This document shows positions 13,601 through 49,642 of a stretch of 49,642 bases of DNA, in pieces. The notes under the pieces were generated by a model. That model worked only from the letters and a program-made list of their open reading frames with translations. It searched no databases and had not been told where the DNA came from. The stretch is from a virus. The stretch is taken from IMG/VR virus record IMGVR_UViG_3300022187_000045, positions 1 through 49,642 of that record; one strand, written 5' to 3'. A program made the position numbers and the translations under genes. Every line of letters begins with the position of its first letter. Position 1 is the stretch's first letter.

Positions 13601-16600
13601 TCTAACTAATGGTACTCACTTTGCAGAAGAGTTCGTTGTAATGTCAACCTGGAATAAACAGGTCGATTATGTTGCTTCTATCGTTTCTAGTGGAACTGAT
13701 ACTGGTATTGGAACATTTGGTGCAATATCTAATGGAGTTACTTGTAGTATAGTCTTTACTCCAGAACCAAACATTGATGTTGACGTTAGAACTTTTGAGT
13801 ACAAGATTGGATACTATGATGAAATAACAACTCCAGAAAAAATCATTGATCTTGGAAACATGAGAGTTGATTCTGGATTTGGCGATTATGAAGGAACTGA
13901 GCTTTCAATCAGAAAATCATTTGAACTGTATCATAAAGAACAACCATTATTCCAAAAAAATATTAATGCTACTCAAGAAAGTGAACTTGACATTGATAAT
14001 AATATCATTAGTACACCTGGACATTATTTTGTTACTGGAGAAGAGTTAGATTATTCATATAGATTCTCTGATGTTGGATTAACTGATAATGCCATTTCTA
14101 TTGCATCTACCACTGTTCCAGGAATAGGTCTTACTGATAAACTACCCACAACGGTATATGCTGTTAAAGTAGATGAGTTAAGTATTCAAGTTGCAGCATC
14201 TGCATCAGATGCATTAGCATTTAATCCAAAAATCTTTGAGTTTGCATCTTTGGGGATTACTACAGATCATAGATTTACATCAAAAAAACAAAATACAAGA
14301 ACTCTGATTAGCTTAGATAATATTGTTCAATCTCCAGTAGTTTCATCTGGAACAACCGCTATATTGGCAATAGATTCAACTCCATTTAATGCTATCCTTG
14401 AGTTTGAAGATGTTGATGGATTCCAAGGTGGAGATCTGATTCAGATTGATGATGAAATCATGAGAATCTTTGTTATTGGATTTAATGATAATCCAAACTT
14501 TGTTTATTGTATAAGAGGATTTATTGGTACTAAGAGGAATACTCATCCAGTTGGAAGTCTAGTAACAAAAGTAACTGCAAACTATAATATAGTTGGTAAT
14601 ACCATTTATTTCCCAGAACCGCCTTTTGGAAATATTCAATTTGAAAACTCTCTCAACAAACCAGATGAAGTTGATTACTTTGGTATTGATGTGAGATCTA
14701 AGTTTAATGGTAGAGTTTTCTTAAGAAGTTCTTCTTCTGGGTCTCAATATGGTCCATATACCAATAACTTTATCTTAGATACAGTATCTGATCAGTTTAA
14801 TGGGTATGATCATGAGTTTGCTATCAAAAGTCTTAGCAATAATGTGACAGGCATTTCATCCCTAAATGCTGCAGTTCTTGTTAATAATGTTTTCCAAATT
14901 CCAGATGGTCCATTTAATAATGGAAACTATTCACTGCTGGAAGTTGGCGGTGAAACTAAAATCAAGTTTACTGGATTTAGTAGCACTAGTTATTATGACA
15001 TTAACCAATCTGGTTTGCCCAGAGGCAGAATCATCCTTTCAGTTGGTTCTACTGCTGGACTTGGTTATCAACCTTTAGTTTCTGCTGGAGGAACCGCTAC
15101 AATATCTGGTACAGGATCAATTTCTAATATTTCTATTGGAAACTCTGGTTCTGGATATAGATCTGGAATCCAAACTCATGTCAAGATTGGTGTTGTAACA
15201 ACATCTTTAGATTCTGATATTGAATATATTGGATTTGCAACTGTTTATAATGGGTCAGTAGTTTCTATTGCTATTACAAATCCAGGAACTGGTTATACCT
15301 CATCAAATCCACCAGAAGTTATATTTGATGATCCAGAACCATATTGGAATATTCCTCTTCAATATCAAGCACCTTCTAGCGGACTTGGAACTGAGGCATA
15401 TGTAGATCTTGTCGTAAGTCAAGACTCTAGTATTTTTAACTTTGAGGTAAGAAACTATGGTTATGGATTTAATGTTCGTGACCTATTAACAGTTCCCGTT
15501 GGTGGTGAGACTGGTATTCCAACTACGTCGGATTATGGTTCATTTGAATACTTCACCATTATTGTGGATCGTTTATATGCAGATGATTTCTCTGCATGGC
15601 ATTTCGGAGAGTTGCAACCTATTGATTCTATTCAAGACCTGATTGACGGAAATAGAAGATTCTTCCCAATCTTTATTAATGGTCAACAAACAACTATTAG
15701 ATCAAAACCAGGATCTGGTATTGAAGTTAAATCTACACTTCTAGTATTTGTAAATGATGTTCTACAAGTTCCAGATGAAGGTTATATCTTTGAAAATGGA
15801 AGCGTTATCGAGTTTCCAGTTCCTTTAGAAATAGGAACAAAGGTAGATATTGTATTTTATAAAGGTTCTGGATCAGTTGACACTAGAAATGTAGATATTG
15901 TTGAATCAGTCGAAGAAGGTGACCTATTTACTATTAATAGCGATAATCCATTATATGCACAAAATGAGCGTCAAGTATCTGATATTGTGAATACAAATAC
16001 AGTTGAAACTATTGCATATCCAGGTCCAGGATTAGATAAAAGCGAATCTATTGTCAGATCTATTGCTCTCTGCCAACAAAAGCATGATATTGCAGTGAAT
16101 GGTAGTTATGTTGGAAAATCTAGATCAAGTTATGAGCCATACATGTCTCCAGTCGCAAAAGTGATTAATAGTGTCAATACAACTTCAACAGATATTTACG
16201 TTGATGGTGTTAAGATTTTCTTTGATGATCTTAGAGAATATTCTACTGATCCAACAAAGAAGCAAACGATAACAGTAGTGTCACAAGAACCCATCGTTTC
16301 AGCTGCTGCAACTGCTATTGTTTCTGCTGCTGGAACTATTACTGGTGTCGTTATTAGTAATAGTGGTCTTGGATATACGTTTGCACCATCTGTATCTATA
16401 CCAAACTCAGATAATCAAACATTTACAAATAAGAATAACTTTTATACTAACCAAACAGTTCTACAAAGTAGTATCACTAATGGATTAGTAGATTCAATAA
16501 CTGTTGTTTCTTCTGGATCTGGGTATACGACAACAAATCCACCACAAGTCATTATTGAGTCTCCTAGAGCATCATATGAAGTTATGGAAAACGTTAGTTA

Positions 16601-18738: not shown

Positions 18739-21700
18739 ATGCCATCAAAAACGAATATAAACGTCTTTCCTTATTTTGATGACTTTGATGAGGACAAAAA
18801 CTACTATAAAGTTCTTTTTAAACCTGGATATCCCATTCAGGCTAGAGAGTTATCAAATGTGCAATCGATATTGCAAAATCAGATCGAACAGTTTGGAAAC
18901 CATGTTTTCAAAGAAGGATCCGTTGTAATTCCAGGTAATATTAGTTTTACCAGGATTACTGGCGTTGAAGTTCAAAATACATTTAATGCTATTGATATTG
19001 ATCAATACATTAATGATGCTAAGTTATATGGATACGTTATTGTTGGCAGAGATAGTGGTCTAAGAGCTAAAGTTGTTAAAGTACTTAGAAAAAGTGATTA
19101 TCCAGATTTAAATAATACTTTGGTATATTTTCAGTATTTAAATACTGGATCTGATAATCAAACTGAGTTTGAACCAGGAGAATCTCTCTATGCAGAATCT
19201 GAGATTCTTCCCGTATTGAGGCGTGGTGTAACTTCTTCCACTGTCGTAAATGTAACAACTCAAAATAATGAAGACATTTATGGTGATCAGGGTGTACAAA
19301 GTAGTATTGTAACTGCTTCAAGATCATCAAACAACATTTCTGGACAGTACCAATACGAAAATGTTAGTACTGTTGATGATATTACTCTTAGAAGTGGTCA
19401 AGATTTTTTATTAGTAAAAACTCCTATTATTGGATCAGCAGCTATTATTAGCGAAGGTGTATATTTTATAAGAGGAAACTTTGTTAATGTTGCTGAAGAG
19501 TTGCTAGTTGTAGATAAGTTTAGTTTCTTAGCAAATGTAAAGATCGGATTAAGTGTTACTGAACAGATTATAACTTCCGATAATGATCCAACTTTATTTG
19601 ATAACTCTAGAGGATTTTCAAACTATGCTGCTCCTGGAGCAGATAGATTAAAAATCACAGCAAGATTGGCATCTTTAGATTTAGATGATGATCAAACAGA
19701 TAACTTTATTGAACTTACAAGAGTAGAAGAAGGTAATATTGTATTCTTGAATAGAAATCCTCAATATAATGAGCTTGGTAATGAACTTGCTAGAAGAACT
19801 TACGATGAGTCTGGAGATTATTATATTACACCATTTACTATAAGTGTAGATGAATCTCTGAATGACTTAGAAGGTAGCAGAGGTGTATTTAAGGAAGGAG
19901 AAAAAACTAGAGAACAAAATACTCCTAGTGAAAGTATGGGAGTATACAAACTATCTCCAGGAAAAGCATATGTTAAAGGATATGAGATTGAAAGGTTATC
20001 TAGTACTTTAATCGATTTTGATAAACCTAGAGATACTAAAACATTATCTAACCAGTCTATCCAGTATGCCCCTGGAACAGGTCTAACTCTCAATAGGGTA
20101 CATGGGACACCAAAGATTGGTATTTCAACTTATCACGTTTCTTTGAGAGATTCTAGACTAGGAGTAAATAATTTAGAAGCGTCTGGCAAAGAGATTGGAT
20201 TGAGTAGAGTATATGATTTTGCCCTAGAATCTGGTGCATATAATACAAGTAATCTAGATCTTAATGAATGGGATCTAAATGCATATGATTTAGATTTTTA
20301 TACAGAGATTACATTAAACCAACCAGTAACAGAAACTATTCCATCAAAAATTGATGGTAGATATACTGGAGCATTTTCTTTCTTAAGATTTGGCGCGTCA
20401 AATGCAGGTGTCATCACCGCATATAGTAGTTCTGGAAAATATTCTATTGGAGAAAAGATTACTTTTAGTAATGGAGAAACTAGAGTAATCACAAATATTA
20501 GATCTTATGGCATTGACGATATTAAGTCAGTTTATGGAAATGTAGGACTATCTACATTTACTGGAGATCTAAAGCAATCTAAAAAAGTTTCCTTAGGAAG
20601 TGTTACTATTCAAGGTGAATCTGCTGGTGTATCTACAGTAACATCACCATCAACCATATTTACCAGTATTTGTGAGGATGGAGATTTAGTATCTTATAGT
20701 ATTGGCGAAAATACTATACCAAACTTTGCAAAAATCCAATCAGTATCCTCTAATAGTATTGTTATTGAACCAGTTCAATCTGTTTCTGGTATTTGTATAG
20801 GAACTCTTCCATTATCAACAACTACTGGATTGGATTTTTCTATTTTAACTACGGAAAGGCAAGTCGGTAATAATGCATTGTATACCCCCCTCCCCAAGGA
20901 AAATATTGAATCTGTAGACCTTAGCGAGTCTAGAATTTCTATTAGAAGAGAGTATTCTGTTACTATTGCTAGTAACGGTTTTAACATTTCAGCTTCTACA
21001 TTAGCAGCAAATGAGTCTTTTCAACCATATGATGAAGAAAGATATTCTTTGATAGCTCTTGATGGAACTATTATTCCATTAGAAAGTGGAAACTTTGCAT
21101 TTTCAAATGGTGGCAGAGAAGTTACATTAACTAATCTTACCACTAACGGTCAAGCAAGATTTATTGCTTCACTTTACAAAACAACAGTCAAGAGTAGGGC
21201 AAAAGTTAAAAAGATTGAAGTTGCTACATTCTCAAAATCATCCATTGAGCAATCTGGCGTAAATATATCTGGTGTTGGTGTAACAACTTTAAATGATGGA
21301 TTGACATATGGAAACTATCCATATGGCACAAGAGTTCAAGATGACAGAATCTGTTTAAATCATCCAGAAATCATTAGATTATATGGTGTTTTTGAATCGA
21401 GAACTACAGAAGATCCGATTTTACCAAAGTTAATAATAACAAATGCTCTAACTTCTGAAAAGACCCCAACTACTGCAAATAATATTAAAGTTGGTGAGCG
21501 TTTAGTTGGAGGTACTTCAGAATGTGTTTTAGTATGTACTGCTATTATAAATTCTTCAACTATTGAAGTTGTATCAGTAAACCAAAAAACTCCTGCTACT
21601 TCAGAAGTAATAAAATGCAAAGAAACTGGAATAACAGCACAAGTAGTAAACTATATTGATACACAAAGTGTTAATATCACTGATAGATATTTACTTGAAT

Positions 21701-24700
21701 CTGGAGAGACTTCTCAAGCATATAGATACTCCTTTTTAAAGAGAGTTTCTAGTTCAGCATCTCCAAGAAAAAGGATTAAAGTCGTTTATGACAGAGTATA
21801 TATTCCATCTGACGATTCTGGAGATATCGTATGTGTAAACTCATATTCTAGTATTCCTAGAAATAGAATTTCATCAGCACCAGGTCAGATATCAAAAACT
21901 GATATTTTAGATTTAAGACCTATTCCAGATCCTTTCCTCGTTTATGAGGGTCAAAGATCTCCATTTGAGTTCTTCGGAAAGAACTACAGTGAAACTAATA
22001 ACTCATTTAAGGATATTTTAGTTGCAGATGAAGATATTATCTTAAACTATACATTCTATCTCGGTAGAATAGATAGAATATTCTTAGATATTAATGAGCA
22101 GATTATTGTCAAGAAAGGTGTTTCATCAGAATATTTAGATCCTCCAGAATCTCCATCAAATGCTCTTGAGATTGCTAGGGTTACTTTGAAACCATATGCA
22201 GAAAATGCAAGAAAATCATCAGATATTCAACTTTTAACTCATAAAAGATATAGAATGTCTGATATTTCTAAGTTAGAGAATCGCATTAAAAATCTTGAGT
22301 ATTATACAACATTAAATTTACTAGAGCAATCAACTTCAGCATTATCTGTTCCAGATGCTAATGGACTGAATAGATTCAAGTCTGGTTTTTTTGTCGATGA
22401 TTTCTCAAATAGAAATAATCAGTATATTGTTCAGGGTCAGATTAAGAACTCAAATGATAAAGTAAATCGAGAACTACGTCCATCTTGTTATACTACAGAG
22501 CTTGATTTAACTTTAGCAAATAATGTTAACTATAACACTAATAATGCTCCATCTGTTCATCCAGTAAAAGGTATTTCAAGAAGTGTATATGATGATATCA
22601 AGTTTACTGAAATAGGAAATATTATCGGAAATAACATCCAAATAACTGGTGGTAGCGGATCTCGTAATGAGAATACGGGTAAAGGACTACTAACTTTAGC
22701 ATATGATGAGCAGATTAGAATTAGACAATCTTTCTCTACAAGAGTAGTAAATGTTACTCCATATCTTGTAACAAACTTTTATGGTCAAATTGACTTAAAC
22801 CCATCTTCTGATGTTTGGAGCGAAGAAACTATTCTAGAACCACTAATCATTACTGGTATTGAAGGTAGAGTTATTGAAGAAAGTCCTACTTTTACTGCTC
22901 AAGAGTTTGCATCTCAAGATGGATTTGATCCTGTAAGTTGGGGATCTTGGACAAACAACTGGACTGGATCTTCTCAAGCAGTTATTGGTAGAGGATCATT
23001 TAGTAGATCTTCAACATCACAAACAGGAAACAGAGTAACTGCTACTACAACAACAACTAGTGGTAACATTGTACGAACTACTAATACTGGTACTGCAACT
23101 CAGCAAGGCACATCTACTAGGATAACTAATCCTATTGAAGATAAAAATCTAGGAAATAGAGTTGTATCTGCTTCTAGTGCTACTTACTTGAGATCAAGAA
23201 ATGTTGAATTCATCGCTAAAAAGATGAAACCAAGTACAAGATTATATACTTTCTTTGATGATCAGGATGTTACTTCGCTTTGTACGCCAAAACTATTAGA
23301 AATAGAAATGGTCGATGGATCATTTACTATTGGTGAAGATGTTATCTTCTATGACGAAAATAACTTTGTAATAGCAGGATATCGTTGTGCAGCACCAAAT
23401 CATCAATATGGCAATATTAATGATCCAGATGCTCAAACTTTCTATACTAGAAATCCTTATGATCAGAGCTCGTTGCCAACTGTTTACACAGAGTCCTCAA
23501 ATATTTTAAATCTAGATACAACTTCTTCTGGCGATTATTCTTCTGGTTATGGTGGAAACGTTTTAATAGGCGCTAGAGCGGAAGGTGTTACGAGTGGAGC
23601 AGTTGCTACGATTTCAAATAAGAGATTATTTACAGATCAAGTTGGTGTTGTTATTGGATCATTATTTGTACCAAATCCAAACGATGACACAAATCAAAGA
23701 TTTACTACTGGTGCTATTTCGTTCAAAGTTTCGAATGATCAAACTAATGATATTATTCTTGGCGTAGAAACTACAGAAGCTACTGGACAGTTCTTCTCTT
23801 CTGGATTTATTACACAGACCCAGGAAACTACAATCCAAGTAAGAAATACTCTGATTGAATCTGCCACTATTAGTAGAGAAAGAGAGATTGTTTCTACCTC
23901 TACAAGATTTGTACCAACTAATAGAACTACAAGTAGTCGTTCATTCACAGTATCTCCACCTAGACCACCAGAACGCCAGGATCCACTAGCACAGTCATTC
24001 TTTATTTCAAATGCTGCTGGTGTATTTGTAACTCATATGGATTTGTTCTTCCAGGCAAAATCTGAAGATCTTCCATGTTATGTTGAACTAAGATCCATGG
24101 AACTTGGATTGCCCACAACAGAGGTATATCCATTAAGCAGAGTTGAGTTACTACCAGATCAAATCAATATTTCTGATGATGCTACAGCTGCAACTAGAGT
24201 TACTTTCCAAGGACCAGTTTACCTTGAAGGTAATAAAGAGCACTGTGTAGTTCTTCTATCTGATGTTACTGATTATTATGTTTGGATTTCTAGATTGGGA
24301 GAAACTACATTCAATATTAATGGTGAAGAGATTGCTATTACAACCCAAAATGAACTAGGATCTCTATTCAAATCTCAGAATGGATCAACTTGGACTCCAA
24401 GTCAATATGAAGATCTTAAGTTTACTCTTTTTAATGCAAGATTTGTAGATCAAGGTAGCGTAACTCTTGTTAATAGTGACGTTTCTCAAGCAAATAATCT
24501 CTATAAAGATCCACTCAGAACATATTCTAAAACACAGAGAGTTTCTCTTGGTGCGACTATAACTGACACAAACTTAAGGATTGGAAATACAATATACCAA
24601 GAAGGTTCTAATGCAAGTGGTGTTTATATTGGAAATGCTGGTATTGTAACTGGAGATCTTTCTTTAGCAAATGCTGGTATTGGATATACTCCTTTTGAGT

Positions 24701-26460
24701 TTGGAGCACCTGCATTTACTTTTGAAGATGTTCCTTTAGTTTCATTAACAGGTGATGGAAGGAATGCTACTGTTGATATTACAATCGATGGCGGTGTTGC
24801 TATTGCTGCAACTATCGTAAATGGTGGTTCTGGATATGTTATTGGCGAAGAACTGACAGTATCTCAACTAGGAATCTCTTCTGTCGGAAGAAACCTTGTA
24901 TTGTCGGTAACTGATATTTTTGGTGTCAATCAAATCATTATGGATGAAATCCAAGGTGATTTTGATGTTTCACCTACTAAATCTCTATACTTCTATAGTA
25001 ATGATCCTGTCGTTGGATTTGGAACAACTACTATAAATGCATTAGGTAATGGTGGAGACGATACTGATGTAACAGTTCAATCTATAGAAACTGTTTATGA
25101 TGGATTGCATATTGAAGTTAATCATAAAAATCACGGAATGCATTCTCTACAAAATAGAGTATTGATTTCTGGTGTAGAATCTGATGTTTCTCCTGCTACA
25201 TTAGTAGGATCACTTTCAGGAACATCCACTGAGGATATTGAGTTAGATATTGATAATATTTCAGTATTTGAAACTTTTGAAAACATTCCAGTTTCTGCCC
25301 AGAATCCTGGTTATGTTTCTATTGGAAATGAAATTATTTCATATACTGGCATTAATGGAAATAGTTTAACAGGTATTGGAAGAGATATTGATACATCATC
25401 AATAGCAATTCCTCGTATTGTTAACCATAATCCAAAAGTATATAAGTATGAATATAATGGTATTTCTTTAAGAAGAATCAATAAAGAACACTTCTTACAA
25501 GATGCTACAGTAGAAAATCCAATTGATCTGGACAGATATAATATTAAAATAGATACTTCAACTAATGGAGTAGATAGATCTACTGGAGTTGCATATCCAA
25601 AACTATTCTTAAATGAAACTAAGAGTGGTGGTGGACCTGGAGTCTACGGTTCTAAGAACATTGCATATGAAATGATTCATCCCATTATAAATGCATTAGT
25701 TCTTCCAGATGCAACACTAACTGCTACTGTTAGAACAACATCTGGTACTAGCATTGGCGGAAATGAGGAATCATTCATTGATTCTGGAACCGTTCCATTA
25801 ACTATTAATGAAGATAACTATTTTGATTCTCCTAGAGTTATTGCTTCTAGAATCAATGAACTTGCTTTTGCAGATCAAATACCTGGAAACAAATCTCTAG
25901 AAATCACTTTAAATCTATCGACAGATCAACAAGTTATCAGTCCTATTATTGATCTGGATCGTTTGGGTGCTGCATTTGTATCCAATAGAGTAAATAATCC
26001 AATCACAGATTATATTAATGATCCTAGAACATCTAGTAGTATAGAAGATCCAACCGCATTTACATATCAAACAAAACCAGTCCAACTAGAGTTCCCAGCA
26101 ACTTCTATAAAGGTTCTTGTTGAATCATATATAAATCAATATACTGATGTTAGAGCATTCTTTGCTGTTATGAAGTCTGCAGAGGAAGAACCAATTTATT
26201 ATCCATTCCCTGGATTTAGAAATAGATTGGCATCTGGTGAAGTTATTGATATTACCAAAAATGATGGAACTCCAGATAAACAATATAGTAGAAATAATGC
26301 TCTAGGGTATGAGCAAGGTGACATTAGCTATATTGATTTGGAGTTTAATATTGATAACCTTGAGCCATTTAACTTCTTCTCAGTGAAGTTGTTAGGCACC
26401 TCAACAAATCAGGCATTCCCACCAAGATTTAGAGATTTAAGAGTCATTGGATTAGCATAA
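18739..26460 (+). CDS. 2573-aa DUF4815-type baseplate/tail structural protein
   Basis: The N-terminus (NINVFPYFDDFDEDKNYYKV, then LFKPGYPIQARELSNVQSIL and QNQIEQFGNHVFKEGSVV) is the signature of DUF4815, a domain of very large phage virion proteins encoded beside baseplate genes. By position it corresponds to the gp9/gp10 part of the T4 cluster, the outer wedge to which fibres attach, but homology to gp10 is not visible to me. A Ser/Thr/Gly low-complexity linker lies at about 1410-1465, a GSGY module at about 2029, and a QIDDE/RG-type module at about 2190-2235. The C-terminus (about 2460-2573) is a separate beta domain rich in aromatic residues. The start follows the gp8 stop by six bases. 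Late expression with gp8 is inferred. Confidence 0.82.
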   Translation: MPSKTNINVFPYFDDFDEDKNYYKVLFKPGYPIQARELSNVQSILQNQIEQFGNHVFKEGSVVIPGNISFTRITGVEVQNTFNAIDIDQYINDAKLYGYVIVGRDSGLRAKVVKVLRKSDYPDLNNTLVYFQYLNTGSDNQTEFEPGESLYAESEILPVLRRGVTSSTVVNVTTQNNEDIYGDQGVQSSIVTASRSSNNISGQYQYENVSTVDDITLRSGQDFLLVKTPIIGSAAIISEGVYFIRGNFVNVAEELLVVDKFSFLANVKIGLSVTEQIITSDNDPTLFDNSRGFSNYAAPGADRLKITARLASLDLDDDQTDNFIELTRVEEGNIVFLNRNPQYNELGNELARRTYDESGDYYITPFTISVDESLNDLEGSRGVFKEGEKTREQNTPSESMGVYKLSPGKAYVKGYEIERLSSTLIDFDKPRDTKTLSNQSIQYAPGTGLTLNRVHGTPKIGISTYHVSLRDSRLGVNNLEASGKEIGLSRVYDFALESGAYNTSNLDLNEWDLNAYDLDFYTEITLNQPVTETIPSKIDGRYTGAFSFLRFGASNAGVITAYSSSGKYSIGEKITFSNGETRVITNIRSYGIDDIKSVYGNVGLSTFTGDLKQSKKVSLGSVTIQGESAGVSTVTSPSTIFTSICEDGDLVSYSIGENTIPNFAKIQSVSSNSIVIEPVQSVSGICIGTLPLSTTTGLDFSILTTERQVGNNALYTPLPKENIESVDLSESRISIRREYSVTIASNGFNISASTLAANESFQPYDEERYSLIALDGTIIPLESGNFAFSNGGREVTLTNLTTNGQARFIASLYKTTVKSRAKVKKIEVATFSKSSIEQSGVNISGVGVTTLNDGLTYGNYPYGTRVQDDRICLNHPEIIRLYGVFESRTTEDPILPKLIITNALTSEKTPTTANNIKVGERLVGGTSECVLVCTAIINSSTIEVVSVNQKTPATSEVIKCKETGITAQVVNYIDTQSVNITDRYLLESGETSQAYRYSFLKRVSSSASPRKRIKVVYDRVYIPSDDSGDIVCVNSYSSIPRNRISSAPGQISKTDILDLRPIPDPFLVYEGQRSPFEFFGKNYSETNNSFKDILVADEDIILNYTFYLGRIDRIFLDINEQIIVKKGVSSEYLDPPESPSNALEIARVTLKPYAENARKSSDIQLLTHKRYRMSDISKLENRIKNLEYYTTLNLLEQSTSALSVPDANGLNRFKSGFFVDDFSNRNNQYIVQGQIKNSNDKVNRELRPSCYTTELDLTLANNVNYNTNNAPSVHPVKGISRSVYDDIKFTEIGNIIGNNIQITGGSGSRNENTGKGLLTLAYDEQIRIRQSFSTRVVNVTPYLVTNFYGQIDLNPSSDVWSEETILEPLIITGIEGRVIEESPTFTAQEFASQDGFDPVSWGSWTNNWTGSSQAVIGRGSFSRSSTSQTGNRVTATTTTTSGNIVRTTNTGTATQQGTSTRITNPIEDKNLGNRVVSASSATYLRSRNVEFIAKKMKPSTRLYTFFDDQDVTSLCTPKLLEIEMVDGSFTIGEDVIFYDENNFVIAGYRCAAPNHQYGNINDPDAQTFYTRNPYDQSSLPTVYTESSNILNLDTTSSGDYSSGYGGNVLIGARAEGVTSGAVATISNKRLFTDQVGVVIGSLFVPNPNDDTNQRFTTGAISFKVSNDQTNDIILGVETTEATGQFFSSGFITQTQETTIQVRNTLIESATISREREIVSTSTRFVPTNRTTSSRSFTVSPPRPPERQDPLAQSFFISNAAGVFVTHMDLFFQAKSEDLPCYVELRSMELGLPTTEVYPLSRVELLPDQINISDDATAATRVTFQGPVYLEGNKEHCVVLLSDVTDYYVWISRLGETTFNINGEEIAITTQNELGSLFKSQNGSTWTPSQYEDLKFTLFNARFVDQGSVTLVNSDVSQANNLYKDPLRTYSKTQRVSLGATITDTNLRIGNTIYQEGSNASGVYIGNAGIVTGDLSLANAGIGYTPFEFGAPAFTFEDVPLVSLTGDGRNATVDITIDGGVAIAATIVNGGSGYVIGEELTVSQLGISSVGRNLVLSVTDIFGVNQIIMDEIQGDFDVSPTKSLYFYSNDPVVGFGTTTINALGNGGDDTDVTVQSIETVYDGLHIEVNHKNHGMHSLQNRVLISGVESDVSPATLVGSLSGTSTEDIELDIDNISVFETFENIPVSAQNPGYVSIGNEIISYTGINGNSLTGIGRDIDTSSIAIPRIVNHNPKVYKYEYNGISLRRINKEHFLQDATVENPIDLDRYNIKIDTSTNGVDRSTGVAYPKLFLNETKSGGGPGVYGSKNIAYEMIHPIINALVLPDATLTATVRTTSGTSIGGNEESFIDSGTVPLTINEDNYFDSPRVIASRINELAFADQIPGNKSLEITLNLSTDQQVISPIIDLDRLGAAFVSNRVNNPITDYINDPRTSSSIEDPTAFTYQTKPVQLEFPATSIKVLVESYINQYTDVRAFFAVMKSAEEEPIYYPFPGFRNRLASGEVIDITKNDGTPDKQYSRNNALGYEQGDISYIDLEFNIDNLEPFNFFSVKLLGTSTNQAFPPRFRDLRVIGLA

Positions 26461-31973: not shown

Positions 31974-32687
31974 ATGGCAAAAGATTTTTTATGGGGTGAA
32001 GAGTTTAAACTTGATGTTGCTCGCGGTAAAGCTAGAGGAGCATCAGTAGTTAATATCTTTGGAAACAATGATTCTCAAACAAATACTTTCAGAGCAGTTT
32101 GGGAAAACTCTGATAGTGATGATTATGTGTTTCCACCTTCCCCTCTACAGATGGATGTGAATAGTAATGCCGCAGATGCTGGTGTTTCTATTAAGATTAT
32201 TGGATTGACTACTGATTATGCAGAAGCAGAAGAAGTTGTGACACTTGATGCTACTGGAATTTCAACGACATCTACACCATTTCTTCGCATTAATACAGTA
32301 GTAACAATTGCAGGAAATGCAGCAAATGATATTACGGTAGGTCAAGGGTCTACAACATATGCTCAGATTGATGCTGGTAGAGGTAGAAATCAAGCAGCAA
32401 TTTATACAGTCCCAGATAGATGTGAATTCTATCTTTACAGGATTGATGCATTTACTGCAGATGGTTCTCAACAAAAGGCAGGTAAGTTTAGAAACTTTGT
32501 AAGTCTACCTAATGGTGTTGACTTGAGAGTGGCAGAGGTATCATTCTTCAATAATATGAATATTCAAAGAAGACTTCCTTTTAAATATTCATCAAGAACT
32601 GATATTGCTTTCCAAATGGCAACATTTAGTGGAACTCATCCATGTGCAGTATTTGGTGAAGGTATCTTAGTAAAAGAACTTATGTGA
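31974..32687 (+). CDS. structural-type protein between the terminase subunits, 237 aa
   Basis: A 237-residue protein with no membrane segments and a composition rich in Gly, Ala, Thr and Asn, consistent with a beta-sandwich virion protein. The start MAKDFLWGEEFKLDVARGKA and the end GTHPCAVFGEGILVKEL are of a type I associate with structural proteins located between genes 16 and 17 in cyanophages. Segments QAAIYTVPDRCEFYLYRIDA and RRLPFKYSSRTDIAFQ look like exposed beta strands. It begins nine bases after the preceding stop and ends seven bases before gp17. A capsid- or tail-surface role is inferred. Confidence 0.7.
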   Translation: MAKDFLWGEEFKLDVARGKARGASVVNIFGNNDSQTNTFRAVWENSDSDDYVFPPSPLQMDVNSNAADAGVSIKIIGLTTDYAEAEEVVTLDATGISTTSTPFLRINTVVTIAGNAANDITVGQGSTTYAQIDAGRGRNQAAIYTVPDRCEFYLYRIDAFTADGSQQKAGKFRNFVSLPNGVDLRVAEVSFFNNMNIQRRLPFKYSSRTDIAFQMATFSGTHPCAVFGEGILVKELM

Positions 32688-32694
32688 GTGATTT

Positions 32695-34341
32695 ATGAGT
32701 GAAGTATATCTAGGCAATCCTAATCTAAAAAAAGCAAATACTCCTATTGAGTTTACCGAAGACCAGATTGCAGAATTTATTAAATGCAAAAATGATCCTG
32801 TCTATTTTGCACATAATCACATTAAGATTGTCTCCCTTGATGAAGGTCTGACACAGTTTCATCCTTACGATTTTCAAGAGAAGTTAATATGTAACTTCCA
32901 CAAAAATAGATTTAATATATGCAAAATGCCTCGTCAGACTGGAAAGTCTACAACTGTTGTATCATACCTTCTACATTATCTCATTTTTAATGATAGCGTC
33001 AATATTGGCATTCTTGCAAACAAAGCAGCAACTGCTAGAGAACTTTTAGGGAGGTTAGCTACTGCATATGAAAACTTGCCGAAATGGATGCAACAGGGTA
33101 TTATTGCATGGAACCGTGGTAACATTGAGTTAGAAAATGGCAGTAAGATATTGGCAGCTTCTACGTCTGCAAGTGCTGTCCGAGGTATGTCGTTTAACAT
33201 CCTCTTTCTAGACGAGTTCGCGTTCGTCCCAAATCACATTGCTGACTCGTTCTTTGCATCTGTTTATCCTACTATTACGTCTGGTAAATCAACCAAAGTA
33301 ATCATTGTCTCAACGCCACATGGTATGAATCATTTCTACCGTATGTGGCACGATGCGGAAAGAGAGAAGAACGAATACATACCAACAGAAGTTCATTGGT
33401 CTGAGGTTCCTGGTAGAGACACTGCTTGGAAAGCACAAACTATTGCCAATACTTCAGAACAGCAGTTTAAAGTTGAGTTTGAATGTGAGTTCTTAGGATC
33501 TGTTGATACTCTTATTGCACCATCAAAGTTAAAATCTCTAGTATATTCAGACCCAATAAAAAGAAATGTTGGATTAGATATTTACGAACCTTCTAAAGAA
33601 AACCATGATTATGTCATTACAGTAGATGTTGCCAGAGGAGTTAGTGAAGACTATTCGGCATTTATTGTTGCAGACATAACAGAGTTTCCCCATAGAGTAG
33701 TTGCAAAGTATAGGAATAATGAGATTAAACCTATGCTATTTCCAAATATCATATATGAAGTGGCAAAAAGTTATAATGGAGCATATATTTTATGCGAAGT
33801 AAATGATATTGGAGATCAAGTAGCATCATTGCTACATTATGATCTAGAATATCAAAATGTTTTGATGTGCTCTATGAGAGGAAGAGCAGGTCAGATCGTT
33901 GGGCAAGGATTTTCAGGCAAAAAAACTCAGTTAGGAGTTAAGATGTCCAAGACTGTTAAAAAAGTCGGTGCTCTTAACTTAAAAACTATGATTGAAGAAG
34001 ATAAACTAATCTTCAATGATTATGAGATTATATCTGAGTTGACAACCTTTATTTCAAAAAACAACTCATTTGAAGCGGAAGATGGGTGTAATGATGACCT
34101 TGCTATGTGTTTGGTAATATATGCTTGGTTAGTTGCCCAAGATTATTTTAAAGAACTTACAGATCAAGATATTAGAAAAAGACTATATGAAGAACAAAAA
34201 AATCAAATAGAACAAGATATGTCTCCATTTGGATTTATTGTAGATGGGTTAGATGATAATCAATCTTTTGTAGATGAATCTGGAGACAGATGGTTTACCG
34301 ATGAATATGGTGATATGTCTTATATGTGGGAGTACATGTAA
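32695..34341 (+). CDS. gp17: terminase large subunit gp17 (packaging ATPase/nuclease)
   Basis: A 548-residue homologue of T4 gp17 (610 aa), which translocates DNA into the prohead and cuts concatemers. The ATPase domain has a Walker A (PRQTGKST, 79-86), a Walker B with catalytic Glu (ILFLDEFAF, Asp173-Glu174) and a coupling motif III (VSTPHG, 205-210). The RNase H-like nuclease domain has acidic residues in ITVDVARGVSEDYSAF (Asp311), LCEVNDIGD (Glu368) and GCNDDLAM (Asp467/Asp468). All expected catalytic motifs are present and in order. It ends in a Tyr/Trp-rich acidic tail, and its stop overlaps the next ATG (TAATG). Confidence 0.97.
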   Translation: MSEVYLGNPNLKKANTPIEFTEDQIAEFIKCKNDPVYFAHNHIKIVSLDEGLTQFHPYDFQEKLICNFHKNRFNICKMPRQTGKSTTVVSYLLHYLIFNDSVNIGILANKAATARELLGRLATAYENLPKWMQQGIIAWNRGNIELENGSKILAASTSASAVRGMSFNILFLDEFAFVPNHIADSFFASVYPTITSGKSTKVIIVSTPHGMNHFYRMWHDAEREKNEYIPTEVHWSEVPGRDTAWKAQTIANTSEQQFKVEFECEFLGSVDTLIAPSKLKSLVYSDPIKRNVGLDIYEPSKENHDYVITVDVARGVSEDYSAFIVADITEFPHRVVAKYRNNEIKPMLFPNIIYEVAKSYNGAYILCEVNDIGDQVASLLHYDLEYQNVLMCSMRGRAGQIVGQGFSGKKTQLGVKMSKTVKKVGALNLKTMIEEDKLIFNDYEIISELTTFISKNNSFEAEDGCNDDLAMCLVIYAWLVAQDYFKELTDQDIRKRLYEEQKNQIEQDMSPFGFIVDGLDDNQSFVDESGDRWFTDEYGDMSYMWEYM

Positions 34342-40427: not shown

Positions 40428-41576
40428 ATGTCTAGTGGAGAAAACTTACAAGAAATGGAAGTAGGCACTGCTCAATCCAAGACTGCTGTTAATTCTGGTG
40501 CTAAATCAGCAGATCCAATGCCTTCAGCAGGAAGCAATGCATCTGGTGTTTCAACTCCAGGTCAAACTGGTAGTTGGGTAGATTTAGGCGGTCCTACTCC
40601 AGAAAACTATAAGTCTGATGACGATTCAGCTAAGTTCAAAGAACCTTCACTTAAGACAGTGAATGATGTGGTAAACAGAGGTGCTAAACCTGCTGAACCA
40701 ATGCAAAAACTTACTGGAGCAGTTAAGGAAGAAGAAGAGATTGACGATGAAGTAATCTCTGAAGATGATGAAGTCGAAACCGAAGAGGATCAAGATTTTG
40801 TATCCGAAGAGGAAGTAGAGGAAGAAGAAGAGATTACTGAAGAAGAGTATGACATCGAAGAAGATGTTAATGCTATTCTCGAAACTGACGAAGTAGAACT
40901 CTCCGAAGAGTTTAAAGAAAAAGCAAAACTAGTATTTGAATCTGCACTCAAGACTAAAGTTGGAGAAATCCAAGAAGCTCTTGAGATCAGATACGAAGAA
41001 AGACTCGCTGAAGAAGTTGCTGAAATCAAAGAAGCACTTCAAGAGCGTGTTGATTCTTATCTAGAGTATGTTGCTGATGAGTGGATTGCTGAAAATCAAC
41101 TCTCAGTAGAGCAAGGTCTGAAAGAAGAACTCTCCGAGTCCTTTATGTCAGGTCTACGTGATCTTTTTGAAGCACATTATGTACACATCCCTGAAGATAA
41201 ATATGATGTTCTAGATAGTATGACAGAAAAACTTGATGAAATGGAGACAAAACTCAACGAGCAGATTGAGAAGAATGTTTCCCTTAACAAGCGTCTCGCA
41301 GAGTCGGTTGCTGATGGAATCTTCGATGATATTGCAGAGGGTCTAGCATTCTCGCAAAAAGAAAAGCTCGCTTCACTTGCAGAAAGTGTTGAGTTTGGAA
41401 GTGAGACAGAATATCGTGAAAAGTTGGTAGCATTAAAGGAATCATATTTCCCAACAAAAAATGCTAACCCCAAGGTGGTTTCTGAGAACCTAAGCGAAGA
41501 AGTAGAAACTCCAGAAGCTTATAGCAAAGAGATGGATGCTTACCTAGCAATGGTAAACAGAATCGCTAAAAACTGA
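40428..41576 (+). CDS. gp22: prohead scaffold protein gp22
   Basis: A 382-residue acidic, helical protein in the gp22 position (T4 gp22 is 269 aa), the major scaffold that fills the prohead and is digested by gp21. Residues 1-100 are Gly/Ser/Pro-rich and contain two related elements (NSGAKSADPMPS and NRGAKPAEPMQK). Residues about 100-155 are an extreme Glu/Asp tract. From about 155 to 360 long coiled-coil helices follow (KLVFESALKTKVGEIQEALE, MTEKLDEMETKLNEQIEKN). The C-terminal EVETPEAYSKEMDAYLAMVN resembles other gp22 ends. It is immediately followed by gp23. Scaffold identity is firm from composition, fold and context. Confidence 0.88.
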   Translation: MSSGENLQEMEVGTAQSKTAVNSGAKSADPMPSAGSNASGVSTPGQTGSWVDLGGPTPENYKSDDDSAKFKEPSLKTVNDVVNRGAKPAEPMQKLTGAVKEEEEIDDEVISEDDEVETEEDQDFVSEEEVEEEEEITEEEYDIEEDVNAILETDEVELSEEFKEKAKLVFESALKTKVGEIQEALEIRYEERLAEEVAEIKEALQERVDSYLEYVADEWIAENQLSVEQGLKEELSESFMSGLRDLFEAHYVHIPEDKYDVLDSMTEKLDEMETKLNEQIEKNVSLNKRLAESVADGIFDDIAEGLAFSQKEKLASLAESVEFGSETEYREKLVALKESYFPTKNANPKVVSENLSEEVETPEAYSKEMDAYLAMVNRIAKN

Positions 41577-46155: not shown

Positions 46156-46701
46156 ATGGCAATGACCTTTACCACAATGACAAAAAGAAAAAGATCAGAA
46201 CATTATGTGAATAACAAAGAGTTTTTATCTGCTCTTATTGATTATCAATATGCCGTAGAAAAATCTTATGTTGAAGAGTTTGGAGAAGTTCCAACAAAGG
46301 ATAAAAAAGGAAAAAAATGGAGTACTAAACCTGTTATTCCAAAATATATTGGAGAGTGCTTTTTAAAGATTGCCACCCACCTATCATATAAAACTAATTT
46401 TATCAACTATCTTTTTATTGACGATATGGTGTCCGATGGTATTGAAAACTGTGTGCAATATATTCATAACTTCAATCCAGATAGATCTAAAAATCCTTTT
46501 GCCTATTTTACACAAATCATTCATTATGCTTTCTTGAGAAGGATTCAAAAAGAAAAAAGGCAGTTAGAGATTAAAAGTAAGATTCTTGAAAAAACTGGAT
46601 TTGATGAAGTCTTTTGGGATGACAATAACACTATTGACAACTCGAACTACTCTGACTACAATAGCATCAAAGAAAGTGTTCACATGAAAATTCGTTACTA
46701 A
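46156..46701 (+). CDS. gp55: late-transcription sigma factor gp55
   Basis: A 181-residue homologue of T4 gp55 (185 aa), the minimal sigma factor that recognises the late motif TATAAATA. Family matches are HYVNNKEFLSALIDYQ (T4 NYVNNKELLQAIIDWK), DDMVSDGIENCVQYIHNFNP (T4 [20 protein letters not shown]) and KNPFAYFTQIIHYAFLRRIQ followed by KEKRQ, which is the region-2 core. The ATG has no clear Shine-Dalgarno; in-frame ATGs at 46162 and 46177 are alternatives. It follows a sigma-70 promoter, so it is made early and then turns on the late promoters found elsewhere in this window. gp47 begins directly after its stop. Confidence 0.94.
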   Translation: MAMTFTTMTKRKRSEHYVNNKEFLSALIDYQYAVEKSYVEEFGEVPTKDKKGKKWSTKPVIPKYIGECFLKIATHLSYKTNFINYLFIDDMVSDGIENCVQYIHNFNPDRSKNPFAYFTQIIHYAFLRRIQKEKRQLEIKSKILEKTGFDEVFWDDNNTIDNSNYSDYNSIKESVHMKIRY

Positions 46702-47751
46702 ATGAAAGTTGCTATTATAACAGATACTCATTATGGTGCCCGTAAAGGGTCTAAAGTTTATCATGATTATTTTGAACTATTTTATAAAAATGTATTTTTT
46801 CCAACACTAGAAGAACATAATATTGATACCATCATTCATATGGGCGATGTCTTTGATAGTAGAAAATCTATCGATTATACGTCTTTAGAGTGGGCAAAGC
46901 GAGTTGTCTTTGAACCTTTATCAAAGTATGACGTTCACATGATTATTGGAAATCATGATACTTACTATAAAAACACAAATAGAGTTAACTCTCCAAACTT
47001 ATTATTAAAGTCATATCCAAATATTAAAACATATTCTGACCCTACAGAAGTAAACATTGGTGGACTAAATATTTTACTTTTACCTTGGATCAATGAAGAC
47101 AATCAAGAACTTTGCTATAAACACATTAAAAATACAAGTAGCAACTGTGCGATGGGGCACCTTGAGCTTAATGGATTTAGAGTTAATTCGCAAATCGTCA
47201 TGGACCATGGTCATGAGAGCAAACTATATTCAAAGTTCACCAAGGTCTTCAGCGGTCACTTTCACACTAGATCAGACGATGGACGAATCTTTTACTTGGG
47301 AAACCCATACGAAATGTTCTGGTCAGATGTCGGTGATCGGAGAGGATTCACCATCTTTGATACAGAAACTCTTGAACATTTTCCAGTAGATAATCCTTAT
47401 ACTCTATATCATATTGTTGAGTATGATGATTTGACTATGGATTCTTTTAAACTAAACCATTTTAATGCCAGTAAATACGAAGATAAAATTGTAAAAGTCA
47501 TCGTCAAAAATAAAACAAAACCTAAAGTGTTTGATAAGTTTTTAGATAAAATATATTTGGCAAATCCGTATGAAGTTAAGATAACCGAAATACTTCAAGA
47601 AAGTAGTATTCAAAATGAGGAAGATATTGAAATTGAAAATACAATGACAATACTTTCAAAATATATTGAAAATGCTGATGTTGACATAAATAAAAACAAA
47701 GTTCAAAATCTCGCACGTAAGATTTATAAACAAGCTTGTGATATTAGTTAA
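46702..47751 (+). CDS. gp47: recombination nuclease subunit gp47 (Mre11-like)
   Basis: A 349-residue homologue of T4 gp47 (339 aa), the nuclease partner of gp46 in the Mre11/Rad50-type complex that processes DNA ends and degrades host DNA. All metallophosphoesterase motifs are present: DTHYGARKGS (Asp8, His10), HMGDVFDSRKSIDY, GNHDTYYKN, the AMGHLELNGF element and SGHFHTRS. The start codon follows the gp55 stop without a gap, indicating co-translation. The C-terminal ~100 residues should contain the gp46-binding part. Confidence 0.96.
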   Translation: MKVAIITDTHYGARKGSKVYHDYFELFYKNVFFPTLEEHNIDTIIHMGDVFDSRKSIDYTSLEWAKRVVFEPLSKYDVHMIIGNHDTYYKNTNRVNSPNLLLKSYPNIKTYSDPTEVNIGGLNILLLPWINEDNQELCYKHIKNTSSNCAMGHLELNGFRVNSQIVMDHGHESKLYSKFTKVFSGHFHTRSDDGRIFYLGNPYEMFWSDVGDRRGFTIFDTETLEHFPVDNPYTLYHIVEYDDLTMDSFKLNHFNASKYEDKIVKVIVKNKTKPKVFDKFLDKIYLANPYEVKITEILQESSIQNEEDIEIENTMTILSKYIENADVDINKNKVQNLARKIYKQACDIS

Positions 47752-47756
47752 AGGAT

Positions 47757-48011
47757 ATGTTCATAATCACTATTGCTGGGAAAGAAGATGAAGGAGCTTA
47801 TTCAGTCAAAGATGAGTTTGGTGAAAAAGTTCTTTACATCTTTGAAGATGAAGATGATGCAACTAGGTTTGCCATGATGCTTGAGGATCGAGGCACTCCT
47901 GAAATGTATGTTATGGAAGTTGAGGAACATAGTTTAATCCAAGCATGTGAAATGCATGATCATAAATATCAAATATTTACCGTAGACGATTTTGTAATAC
48001 CACCAGAATAA
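47757..48011 (+). CDS. DUF3110 protein between gp47 and gp46, 84 aa
   Basis: An 84-residue protein with the DUF3110 pattern: FIITIAGKEDEGAYSVKDE, then VLYIFEDEDDATRFAMMLED and TPEMYVMEVEE. DUF3110 proteins are known mainly from cyanobacteria, plastids and their phages, which supports a cyanobacterial host. The fold is probably a small alpha/beta domain like an ACT/ferredoxin-like domain. It starts five bases after gp47 and ends four bases before gp46, so it is translated with the nuclease complex. Function unknown. Confidence 0.85.
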   Translation: MFIITIAGKEDEGAYSVKDEFGEKVLYIFEDEDDATRFAMMLEDRGTPEMYVMEVEEHSLIQACEMHDHKYQIFTVDDFVIPPE

Positions 48012-48015
48012 AAAC

Positions 48016-49642
48016 ATGATTCTTTTTGAAAAAATTCGTTATAAAAACTTTCTTTCTACTGGAAATAGTTTTACTGAACTAGATTTAAATCGCTCAAATA
48101 CTACACTAATTCTAGGAACAAATGGATCGGGAAAAAGTACTTTTCTGGATGCTTTAACTTTTGGATTGTTTGGAAAATCTTTTAGGGGCATTAATAAACC
48201 TCAACTAATAAACTCTACAAATGAAAAAGATTGTTTAGTTGAGATTGAGTTTACTATTGGAAGTATTAAGTGGAAAGTTCGTAGGGGTATAAAACCTGCA
48301 ATCTTTGAAATCTATAGAAACGATCAACCCTTAGATCAAAATGCTTCATCAATTGAGCAGCAAAAGTGGTTTGAGCAAACTATTCTGAAAATGAACTATC
48401 GTTCATTTACTCAGATTGTTATTTTGGGAAGTAGTAACTTTGTTCCTTTTATGCAACTTACTGCATCTAGTAGGAGAGAAGTTATTGAAGATTTATTGGA
48501 TATTAAAATATTTTCTTTGATGAGTTTGGTTATAAAAGAAGATATTAAAATGCTCAAAAGCAATCTTAATAATCTGACTTTAAAACGAGAATCTTTGCAT
48601 GAAAAAATATCTATGCAGAAAGGATTTCTTGAAGATATTGAAAAGCGAGGCAACGAGTTTATTGCCGAAAAATCAAATAAGGTAAACGAACTTATCCGAG
48701 AAGAAAATGAAGTTGAAAAATCTACTGAAGAGTTACTTCTTAAACTTGAAAAGATGGATGATGAACTTCAACAGTACTCTAATGCTAGAGAAAAACTTCG
48801 TAAGTTGGGAAATCTGAAAGGAAAAATCACTCAAAAAATAGCAACGATTACAAAAGAGTATAAGTTTTTCAATGATAATACGGTATGCCCTACCTGCACC
48901 CAAAGCATTGAAGAAACTTTTCGGTTAAATAGAATAGGTGATGCCAAACAAAAGGCAAAAGAACTTAAATCTGGTTTTGAAGAACTTGAAAGGACTATTC
49001 GTGGTGAGGAAATGCGGGAACAAAAGTTCAATGACATTTCTTCTAAAGTAACTAACGTAACACATGGTATTTCTACAAACAATACTCGGGTTTCATCAAT
49101 ACATCAAGAAATCCAAAGTCTACAATATGAAATTCAAAAAACTTCCGAAAATATTCAAAACCGAAATATTGAGCATGATAAACTAGAAGAGTTTCAGAAA
49201 AAGTTAGATTCTTGTTTAGATGAGATTGAAACCACCCAAGAAGAAATAGTAAATCATGATTTTATCTATGGATTGCTAAAAGACTCTGGCGTTAAATCTA
49301 AAATCATTAAAAAATACATTCCCGTTATTAATCAGCAGATTAATCGATATTTGCAGTTGATGGATTTTTATGTCAACTTTAAACTTGATGAAGAGTTTAA
49401 AGAATCTGTTGAGTCACCTATTCACGAAGATTTTTCTTATCAATCTTTCAGTGAAGGTGAAAAGCAACGGATTGATCTTGCTCTACTGTTTACATGGAGA
49501 GAGATTGCGAAGATTAAAAACTCAGCAAATACAAACTTGCTGATAATGGATGAGATCTTTGATAGTTCTCTTGATGGGTATGGTACTGAAGATTTCTTGA
49601 AAATCGTTCGGTACATTATTAAAGATAGTAATATCTTTGTAA
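48016..49642 (+). CDS. gp46: recombination nuclease subunit gp46 (Rad50/SbcC-like), cut by window end
   Basis: At least 542 residues of a homologue of T4 gp46 (560 aa), the SMC-like ATPase partner of gp47. The N-terminal Walker A is GTNGSGKST (34-42). A coiled coil follows (about 160-440) with a CPTC zinc-hook motif (Cys291, Cys294) at its apex. The ABC signature SFSEGEKQR is at 477-485, and the Walker B LLIMDEIFDSSLDG at about 508-521. The start at 48016 fits the family (MILFEKIRYKNFLS). The frame is still open at the last base, so about 20-30 C-terminal residues are missing here because the window ends. Confidence 0.95.
   Translation, partial: MILFEKIRYKNFLSTGNSFTELDLNRSNTTLILGTNGSGKSTFLDALTFGLFGKSFRGINKPQLINSTNEKDCLVEIEFTIGSIKWKVRRGIKPAIFEIYRNDQPLDQNASSIEQQKWFEQTILKMNYRSFTQIVILGSSNFVPFMQLTASSRREVIEDLLDIKIFSLMSLVIKEDIKMLKSNLNNLTLKRESLHEKISMQKGFLEDIEKRGNEFIAEKSNKVNELIREENEVEKSTEELLLKLEKMDDELQQYSNAREKLRKLGNLKGKITQKIATITKEYKFFNDNTVCPTCTQSIEETFRLNRIGDAKQKAKELKSGFEELERTIRGEEMREQKFNDISSKVTNVTHGISTNNTRVSSIHQEIQSLQYEIQKTSENIQNRNIEHDKLEEFQKKLDSCLDEIETTQEEIVNHDFIYGLLKDSGVKSKIIKKYIPVINQQINRYLQLMDFYVNFKLDEEFKESVESPIHEDFSYQSFSEGEKQRIDLALLFTWREIAKIKNSANTNLLIMDEIFDSSLDGYGTEDFLKIVRYIIKDSNIFV

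Follow-up and report, generated by a model that had tools for sequence, protein, structure and literature searches.

The small gene that separates gp47 from gp46 in the window (the whole 49,642-nt stretch of viral DNA analyzed here) encodes a protein which, judged by its sequence, is a member of a known cyanomyovirus family (T4-GC 142, PHROG 470, DUF3110, PF11360), and its predicted structure has, at the level of fold only, the architecture of one lobe of Tic22. We tentatively favor, at somewhat less than even confidence, the reading that the protein is a single-lobe Tic22-type chaperone or adaptor which is produced between gp47 and gp46, its likely clients, and is fitted to cyanobacterial hosts. 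The S-PM2 and P-SSM2 records give the number T4-GC 142 to the gene between gp47 and gp46, and S-PM2p117, P-SSM2 PSSM2_146 and syn9 gp147 belong to the same family and occupy the same place as the window gene. As far as the available text of Sullivan et al. (2010, PMC3037559) goes, the cyanophage core holds 16 hypothetical genes. In the literature found, no function is given for DUF3110, and the accessible part of PMC3597751 notes only co-occurrence. New here are the fold assignment, the link to the host family and the exchange of genes in the slot.

The DUF3110 gene and its joints with gp47 and gp46

The open reading frame occupies positions 47757-48011 on the + strand, from an ATG start to a TAA stop, and its product is matched by Pfam DUF3110 (E 3.5e-16, 59.6 bits against a gathering cut-off of 20.2) and by PHROG 470 (E 3.1e-27). 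The coordinates and both matches bear out the first-pass annotation, which had described an 84-aa DUF3110 frame 5 nt past gp47 and 4 nt ahead of gp46. The protein carries a net charge of -16 and is predicted to form a β-β-β-α-β-α-β domain. Its family motif FEDEDDATRFA (residues 29-39; 47841-47873, + strand) covers, by alignment and model, the end of strand 3 and the start of helix 1, and the core motif of the family (F, DDA.R and a terminal PP) is present in the window copy; F29, D33, D34, A35 and R37 are invariant across the 35 phage and host sequences of alignment A2.

On the same strand, the late sigma factor gene gp55 (46156-46701; phrog_234, E 6.4e-60) has a stop codon abutting the ATG of gp47 (46702-47751), which encodes a 349-aa SbcD/Mre11-like nuclease subunit (phrog_100, E 4.5e-112; PF00149, E 2.5e-12). 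A 5-nt spacer (47752-47756) leads to the DUF3110 gene, and a 4-nt spacer (48012-48015) leads from it to gp46 (48016-49641), whose product is an SbcC/Rad50-like ATPase subunit with 542 aa up to the window end, where the frame is still open (phrog_77, E 3.6e-167; AAA_23, E 9.4e-17). By Pfam and PHROG, the order upstream of DUF3110 is uvsY, uvsW, an Sm-like gene, gp55 and gp47, which recurs in S-PM2 and elsewhere, sometimes with small additional genes; one locus in this comparison (L087) carries no annotation. Inspection by eye found no good ribosome-binding site at either DUF3110 joint in the window. Elsewhere in the window, frames of 4163 and 2573 aa (4638-17129 and 18739-26460) perhaps encode virion or fibre proteins.

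The joints were measured in 142 loci, obtained from 333 sources, of which 243 held all four genes, by thinning at 92% gp47 identity. The joint between gp47 and DUF3110 is an overlap in 101 of the 142, by one nucleotide at stop and start in 99 of these, and that between DUF3110 and gp46 is an overlap in 125, overlap lengths being approximate as a script assigned the start codons, taking the nearest in-frame ATG and looking upstream before downstream. Inserts of at least 60 nt were found in 1/142 loci at the first joint and in 3/142 at the second, against 37/142 between gp55 and gp47. The tight coupling to both neighbors that had been claimed is upheld: most joints are overlaps, and few contain inserts. 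The window copy itself differs from its relatives in having gaps of 5 and 4 nt where they have overlaps, and its nearest loci (L002-L005) likewise show small gaps (the gap list covers 90 loci, two of which, L001 and L090, are the window itself); we count the lack of overlap in the window against the chaperone reading. Since the stop and start codons overlap or nearly touch, gp47, DUF3110 and gp46 are probably translated together. In two loci, homing-endonuclease-like frames lie inside the DUF3110/gp46 joint (L066:4688-5254, GIY-YIG-like by eye, and L076:5251-5814, NUMOD3 by Pfam), and the gp55 frame of the former locus (L066:1746-3212, 488 aa) has an apparent intein, seen by eye, within the sigma factor.

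A single-sequence search matched DUF3110 in 372 of 50,697 phage records, and the syn9 copy as query in 404. In either search, each matched record has a single place; the first word in the names of the matched records is Synechococcus, Cyanophage, Prochlorococcus or Marine. Among the 'Synechococcus' records, gp47 was matched in 376 and DUF3110 in 285 (single-sequence search) or 312 (syn9 query), figures that are totals over all such records. In 80 IMG/VR loci found through DUF3110, gp47 lies directly upstream in all and gp46 directly downstream in 75; for the other five, gp46 lies about 700 nt away in three, an interval that in L066 and L076 holds the homing-endonuclease-like frames, and the few hundred nucleotides left in two hold no gp46 match. 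Moreover, three scans anchored on gp47 returned 240 loci, of which 239 were tested (L062 was excluded as fetched before), a set that includes contigs shared with the DUF3110-found loci, plus near-copies. DUF3110 follows gp47 in 236 of them, and in the other three less than 300 nt are left, so that the gene was never absent from the cyanophage-like loci examined where the contig reached the slot. Relatives with the gene elsewhere, which the earlier annotation had named as evidence against its proposal, were not encountered among the cyanophage-like loci. As the gp47-anchored loci show the same arrangement, we rejected search bias as the source of the association.

Joints are tight on both sides in 212 of the 239 loci, extra DNA is present in 17 and no gp46 start was seen in 7. 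Among the 229 loci with both joints visible, the extra DNA lies on the gp47 side in 9 and on the gp46 side in 8, which we also count against the chaperone reading. To call the gene 'inserted' between gp47 and gp46, as had been done, is misleading, because this order and near-contact are the usual state in the cyanophage group. The conservation is far above chance and DUF3110 is under purifying selection: median dN/dS is 0.108 for DUF3110, 0.073 for gp47, 0.087 for gp46 and 0.037 for gp55, and none of the 340 usable DUF3110 pairs out of 395, which are non-independent, exceeds 1. No plasmid relatives of the protein were found at E <= 1. A known defence gene or NCBI family was considered and rejected, with no match in PADLOC or NCBIfam.

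Occupants of the gap in phages of other hosts

HTVC008M, which infects Pelagibacter and is assigned to the Kyanoviridae, has a similar gene order, and in its slot lies a 2OG-Fe(II) oxygenase (Pfam 2OG-FeII_Oxy_5; HTVC008M 82129-82842, or 32129-32842 of locus L450) that overlaps both gp47 and gp46. Among 31 gp47-anchored HTVC008M-like loci, which include many near-copies and for which the host is known for HTVC008M only, three end before the slot (L467, L479 and L482). In the 28 that reach it, DUF3110 was found in none and the oxygenase in 24, HTVC008M's own IMG/VR record (L453) included; three others have another frame (L477, L478 and L481) and one has none (L480). Encoded outside the slot, one HTVC008M protein weakly resembles DUF3110 over one stretch (E 0.027, profile positions 7-55 of 86); Pfam DUF3110 gave no match to it at E <= 1, and it was left uncounted, though it may be a distant relative. 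The slot of T2 contains 46.2, 46.1, a homing endonuclease and another frame, that of nt-1 one small frame, and those of EspM4VN and K493 nothing. The T4-type genes 46.1 and 46.2 and the HTVC008M oxygenase fill the same gap as DUF3110 but belong to other families (T4_Y03C, DUF5487 and 2OG-FeII_Oxy_5).

Because these five slots differ, the gap is a lineage-linked berth, whose content follows the phage lineage, and the host as far as it is known. The conservation of gene order expected across phages therefore holds throughout the cyanophage-like loci (236/236 assessable) but does not extend to T2, nt-1, EspM4VN, K493 or HTVC008M. Moreover, gp46/gp47 nucleases do not all need DUF3110, as related phages of other hosts do without it in the slot; a subunit of the Mre11/Rad50 type would be present wherever gp46 and gp47 are, and the slots of the same five phages lack DUF3110. 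For the 'inhibitor-binding subunit' suggested earlier, nothing was found in favor.

These comparisons could also mean that the gap is an ordinary berth for small, lineage-specific genes, and that DUF3110 was acquired by a cyanophage ancestor with a function unrelated to its neighbors. The different genes in the T2, nt-1 and HTVC008M slots and the empty slots of EspM4VN and K493 fit such cargo, but the 236 assessable cyanophage-like loci show neither loss nor exchange, the dN/dS of DUF3110 resembles that of gp46, and inserts are far fewer at its joints than between gp55 and gp47, so that we regard this explanation as improbable.

Fold of the predicted model

The window protein was modeled confidently with AlphaFold2, at a pLDDT of 93.3 and a pTM of 0.81. 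Among 631 PDB chains aligned to it by a second-look aligner, the best matches were 4e6z (Plasmodium Tic22; Z 9.2 over 73 residues at 1.9 A), 8xks_I and 8xqw_Q (Z 8.2 and 7.8; chloroplast FtsHi motor complexes) and 4ev1 (Anabaena; Z 7.6), followed by TTHA0547 (2z0r; Z 7.0) and a drop to 4.5; with this aligner, best Z values of 7 to 8 are common without a clear match, and 9.2 is barely higher. The depositors name all four top chains Tic22, and these match a cyanobacterial Tic22 in sequence. A model of the host family, built from an alignment with a host protein as its lead sequence, retrieved the same five chains first, with the four Tic22 chains at Z 8.3 to 6.4, the two models being not fully independent because their alignments share members. 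Foldseek alone gave no PDB match for the window model at E <= 0.001 (best E 0.14), and its top match for the host-family model was Anabaena Tic22 at a weak E of 0.022, above 0.001. One lobe of Tic22 (Anabaena 4ev1, Plasmodium 4e6z) aligns structurally with the phage model across 73-76 residues at 1.9-2.9 A; Tic22 differs in having two lobes per chain (lobe-lobe profile score 64.1), whereas the phage protein would be a single lobe.

Sequence profiles point weakly in the same direction. The comparison of DUF3110 (alignment A3) with 23 cyanobacterial Tic22 sequences scored 26.4. The highest of 200 column shuffles reached 19.5 and the reversed alignment 11.3, while gp47, gp46 and gp55 scored 15.9, 11.4 and 11.0. 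The HH probability of the DUF3110 comparison is 14%, and its score comes from the C-lobe only (25.3; N-lobe 11.6). Earlier runs against Tic22 gave 18.9 with phage rows alone and 19.3 with host rows alone. Pfam Tic22 (PF04278) did not match the window protein at E <= 1, and a search of the PDB by sequence yielded no credible relative of DUF3110 (best E 1.5). Common ancestry of DUF3110 and Tic22 is likely, though not proven. The available part of PMC3652856 presents Tic22 as a chaperone whose hydrophobic pockets resemble those of ClpS and BamB, and the available part of PMC9503650 ties another domain, SseB, to Tic22 chaperones. Moreover, the record of phage S-SCSM1 already labels its DUF3110 protein 'Tic22-like'; among titles and shown abstracts on Tic22 and phages, or on T4 46.2, none was about the DUF3110 gene.

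The acidity of the protein could point to a different role, in which it would act as a DNA mimic or acidic regulator, occupying the DNA channel of either gp47/gp46 or a host nuclease. Besides the 16 net negative charges in 84 residues, mean charge per residue over the 142 loci is -0.145 for DUF3110, compared with -0.044 for gp47 and -0.010 for gp46, and DUF3110 is the most acidic per residue of 31 window frames picked for the count. Nevertheless, its charge varies among phages from -0.25 to -0.024 per residue, which ill suits a mimic, the invariant residues include G, F, A, R, C and P and not acidic ones only, and the protein that its fold matches is a chaperone; we therefore consider a DNA mimic very unlikely. 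The only other strongly acidic frame of the 31 lies at 40428-41576 (-0.168 per residue) and perhaps encodes a prohead scaffold.

Covariation gave little direction as to a partner. Across the 142 loci, distances for DUF3110 correlate with those of gp46 at r 0.82, and with those of gp47 and gp55 at 0.79 each; the partial correlation with gp46 given gp47 is 0.39. This slight lean to gp46 could be explained by shared ancestry. Mutual-information peaks also look like shared ancestry, because those for gp55 and for gp46 fall on the same DUF3110 columns.

Cyanobacterial relatives and candidate roles

Among 292 Cyanobacteriota genomes, DUF3110 was found in 138 and Photo_RC in 136; 135 have both, 153 neither, three DUF3110 alone and one Photo_RC alone (the four discordant genomes are G122, G165, G189 and G057). 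DUF3110 thus looks like a marker of oxygenic cyanobacteria. Host proteins measure 115-154 aa (25 aligned), with a single match in 133 of the 138 genomes, and share with the phage proteins the invariant G13, F29, D33, D34, A35, R37, E43, C64 and P82. They differ in carrying an acidic linker and a conserved C-terminal helix, LDxIRRxLEGLL (modeled with low and moderate confidence, respectively), while phage copies consist of the domain only. Their neighborhoods also differ, having no nuclease genes: a SIS-domain gene, which we take to be MurQ-like, adjoins in 28 of 45 loci, and DUF3084 in 6. Neither tblastn with the phage proteins nor profiles of the 142 gp47 and gp46 sequences revealed gp46- or gp47-like frames near host DUF3110 in 79 loci, which are short, 27 of them reaching 8 kb; the same profiles find both genes in 5/5 control phages.

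The 45 host loci remained from 47 genome loci after exclusion of two phage-like contigs (L091 and L092), and 25 of them entered alignment A3 and the tree, for which host rows were cut to 110 aa. In the tree, the 25 host and 24 phage rows form two sides of one branch (support 99/96) with a length of 1.94 changes per column; two phage branches are long (L082 and L086) and the bootstrap is unsettled. As phage and host rows split on this single branch, the sequences fit one ancient transfer between phage and host, in either direction. The earlier proposal that the gene was taken from a host accordingly stands as to kinship with the cyanobacterial family, and one old transfer would fit it, with the direction going either way; a recent host capture is rejected, since one long branch separates the phage and host copies. 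Both excluded contigs belong to a 'Candidatus Woesearchaeota' bin and have phage DUF3110 matches, and L091 contains a uvsW-gp55-gp47-DUF3110-gp46 block of cyanophage type, which is probably phage DNA that was binned wrongly.

Cyanobacterial fusions add to this picture. We observed a Clp_N-DUF3110-TPR-CHAT protein of 1581 aa (L175:5245-9990), a DUF3110-TPR-CHAT protein of 1353 aa (L174:1294-5355), a further fusion of 1131 aa (L176:4193-7588) and a tandem DUF3110 protein (L177:1903-2850); PADLOC matched neither of the CHAT proteins. The domain composition suggests that DUF3110 may be an adaptor-like domain adjoining a protease.

This host family is the basis for a competing explanation, which we consider possible and nearly as likely as the chaperone reading. 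The phage domain would imitate cyanobacterial DUF3110 and occupy or block its partner, and the slot would set only the time and dose of expression. The co-occurrence of DUF3110 with Photo_RC among the 292 genomes speaks for such a host-directed adaptor or mimic, as does its absence from the slot loci of the same-family Pelagibacter phage. Moreover, the phage form lacks the host's linker and C-terminal helix, as a decoy would, and two of the genomes have host DUF3110 in fusions with TPR and CHAT protease domains, one of them with Clp_N as well. However, a protein aimed at the host needs no one place, yet its place is unchanged in all 236 assessable loci, with fewer inserts at its joints than between gp55 and gp47, and the distance between the phage and host groups argues against close mimicry.

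The chaperone reading starts from the observed gene, its order, the near-contact joints, purifying selection and the fold match of the predicted model. Coupled translation would make gp47, DUF3110 and gp46 together, and the DUF3110 domain may then bind an exposed segment of gp47 or gp46 during assembly, thus working as an assembly chaperone or adaptor, with peptide binding, client and timing as proposed steps. Alternatively, DUF3110 might carry the finished complex to, or from, a partner present only in cyanobacterial hosts. Against the chaperone reading we also count the other slot contents in related phages, the host DUF3110 genes with no gp46- or gp47-like frame beside them, the weak Foldseek result, the low HH probability, the lack of a Pfam Tic22 match, and gp55 correlating as well as gp47. 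A more specific form, which we hold to be doubtful, is that DUF3110 is a third, host-adapted component of gp46/gp47, namely a single-lobe Tic22-type chaperone supplied by coupled translation and swapped for the 2OG-Fe(II) oxygenase in the same-family Pelagibacter phage.

Overall, DUF3110 occurs in 135 of the 136 sampled genomes with Photo_RC and in all assessable gp47-anchored cyanophage-like loci, yet has no function in the literature found. Assigning it the fold of Tic22, which belongs to a lineage of chaperones in cyanobacteria and plastids, opens the family to testing, and the comparison of slots separates the needs of the nuclease from the possible demands of a given host. If the more specific, third-component form of the chaperone reading is true, the DUF3110 protein that nearly all oxygenic cyanobacteria possess would be a cousin of Tic22 and would bind peptides by the same chemistry.
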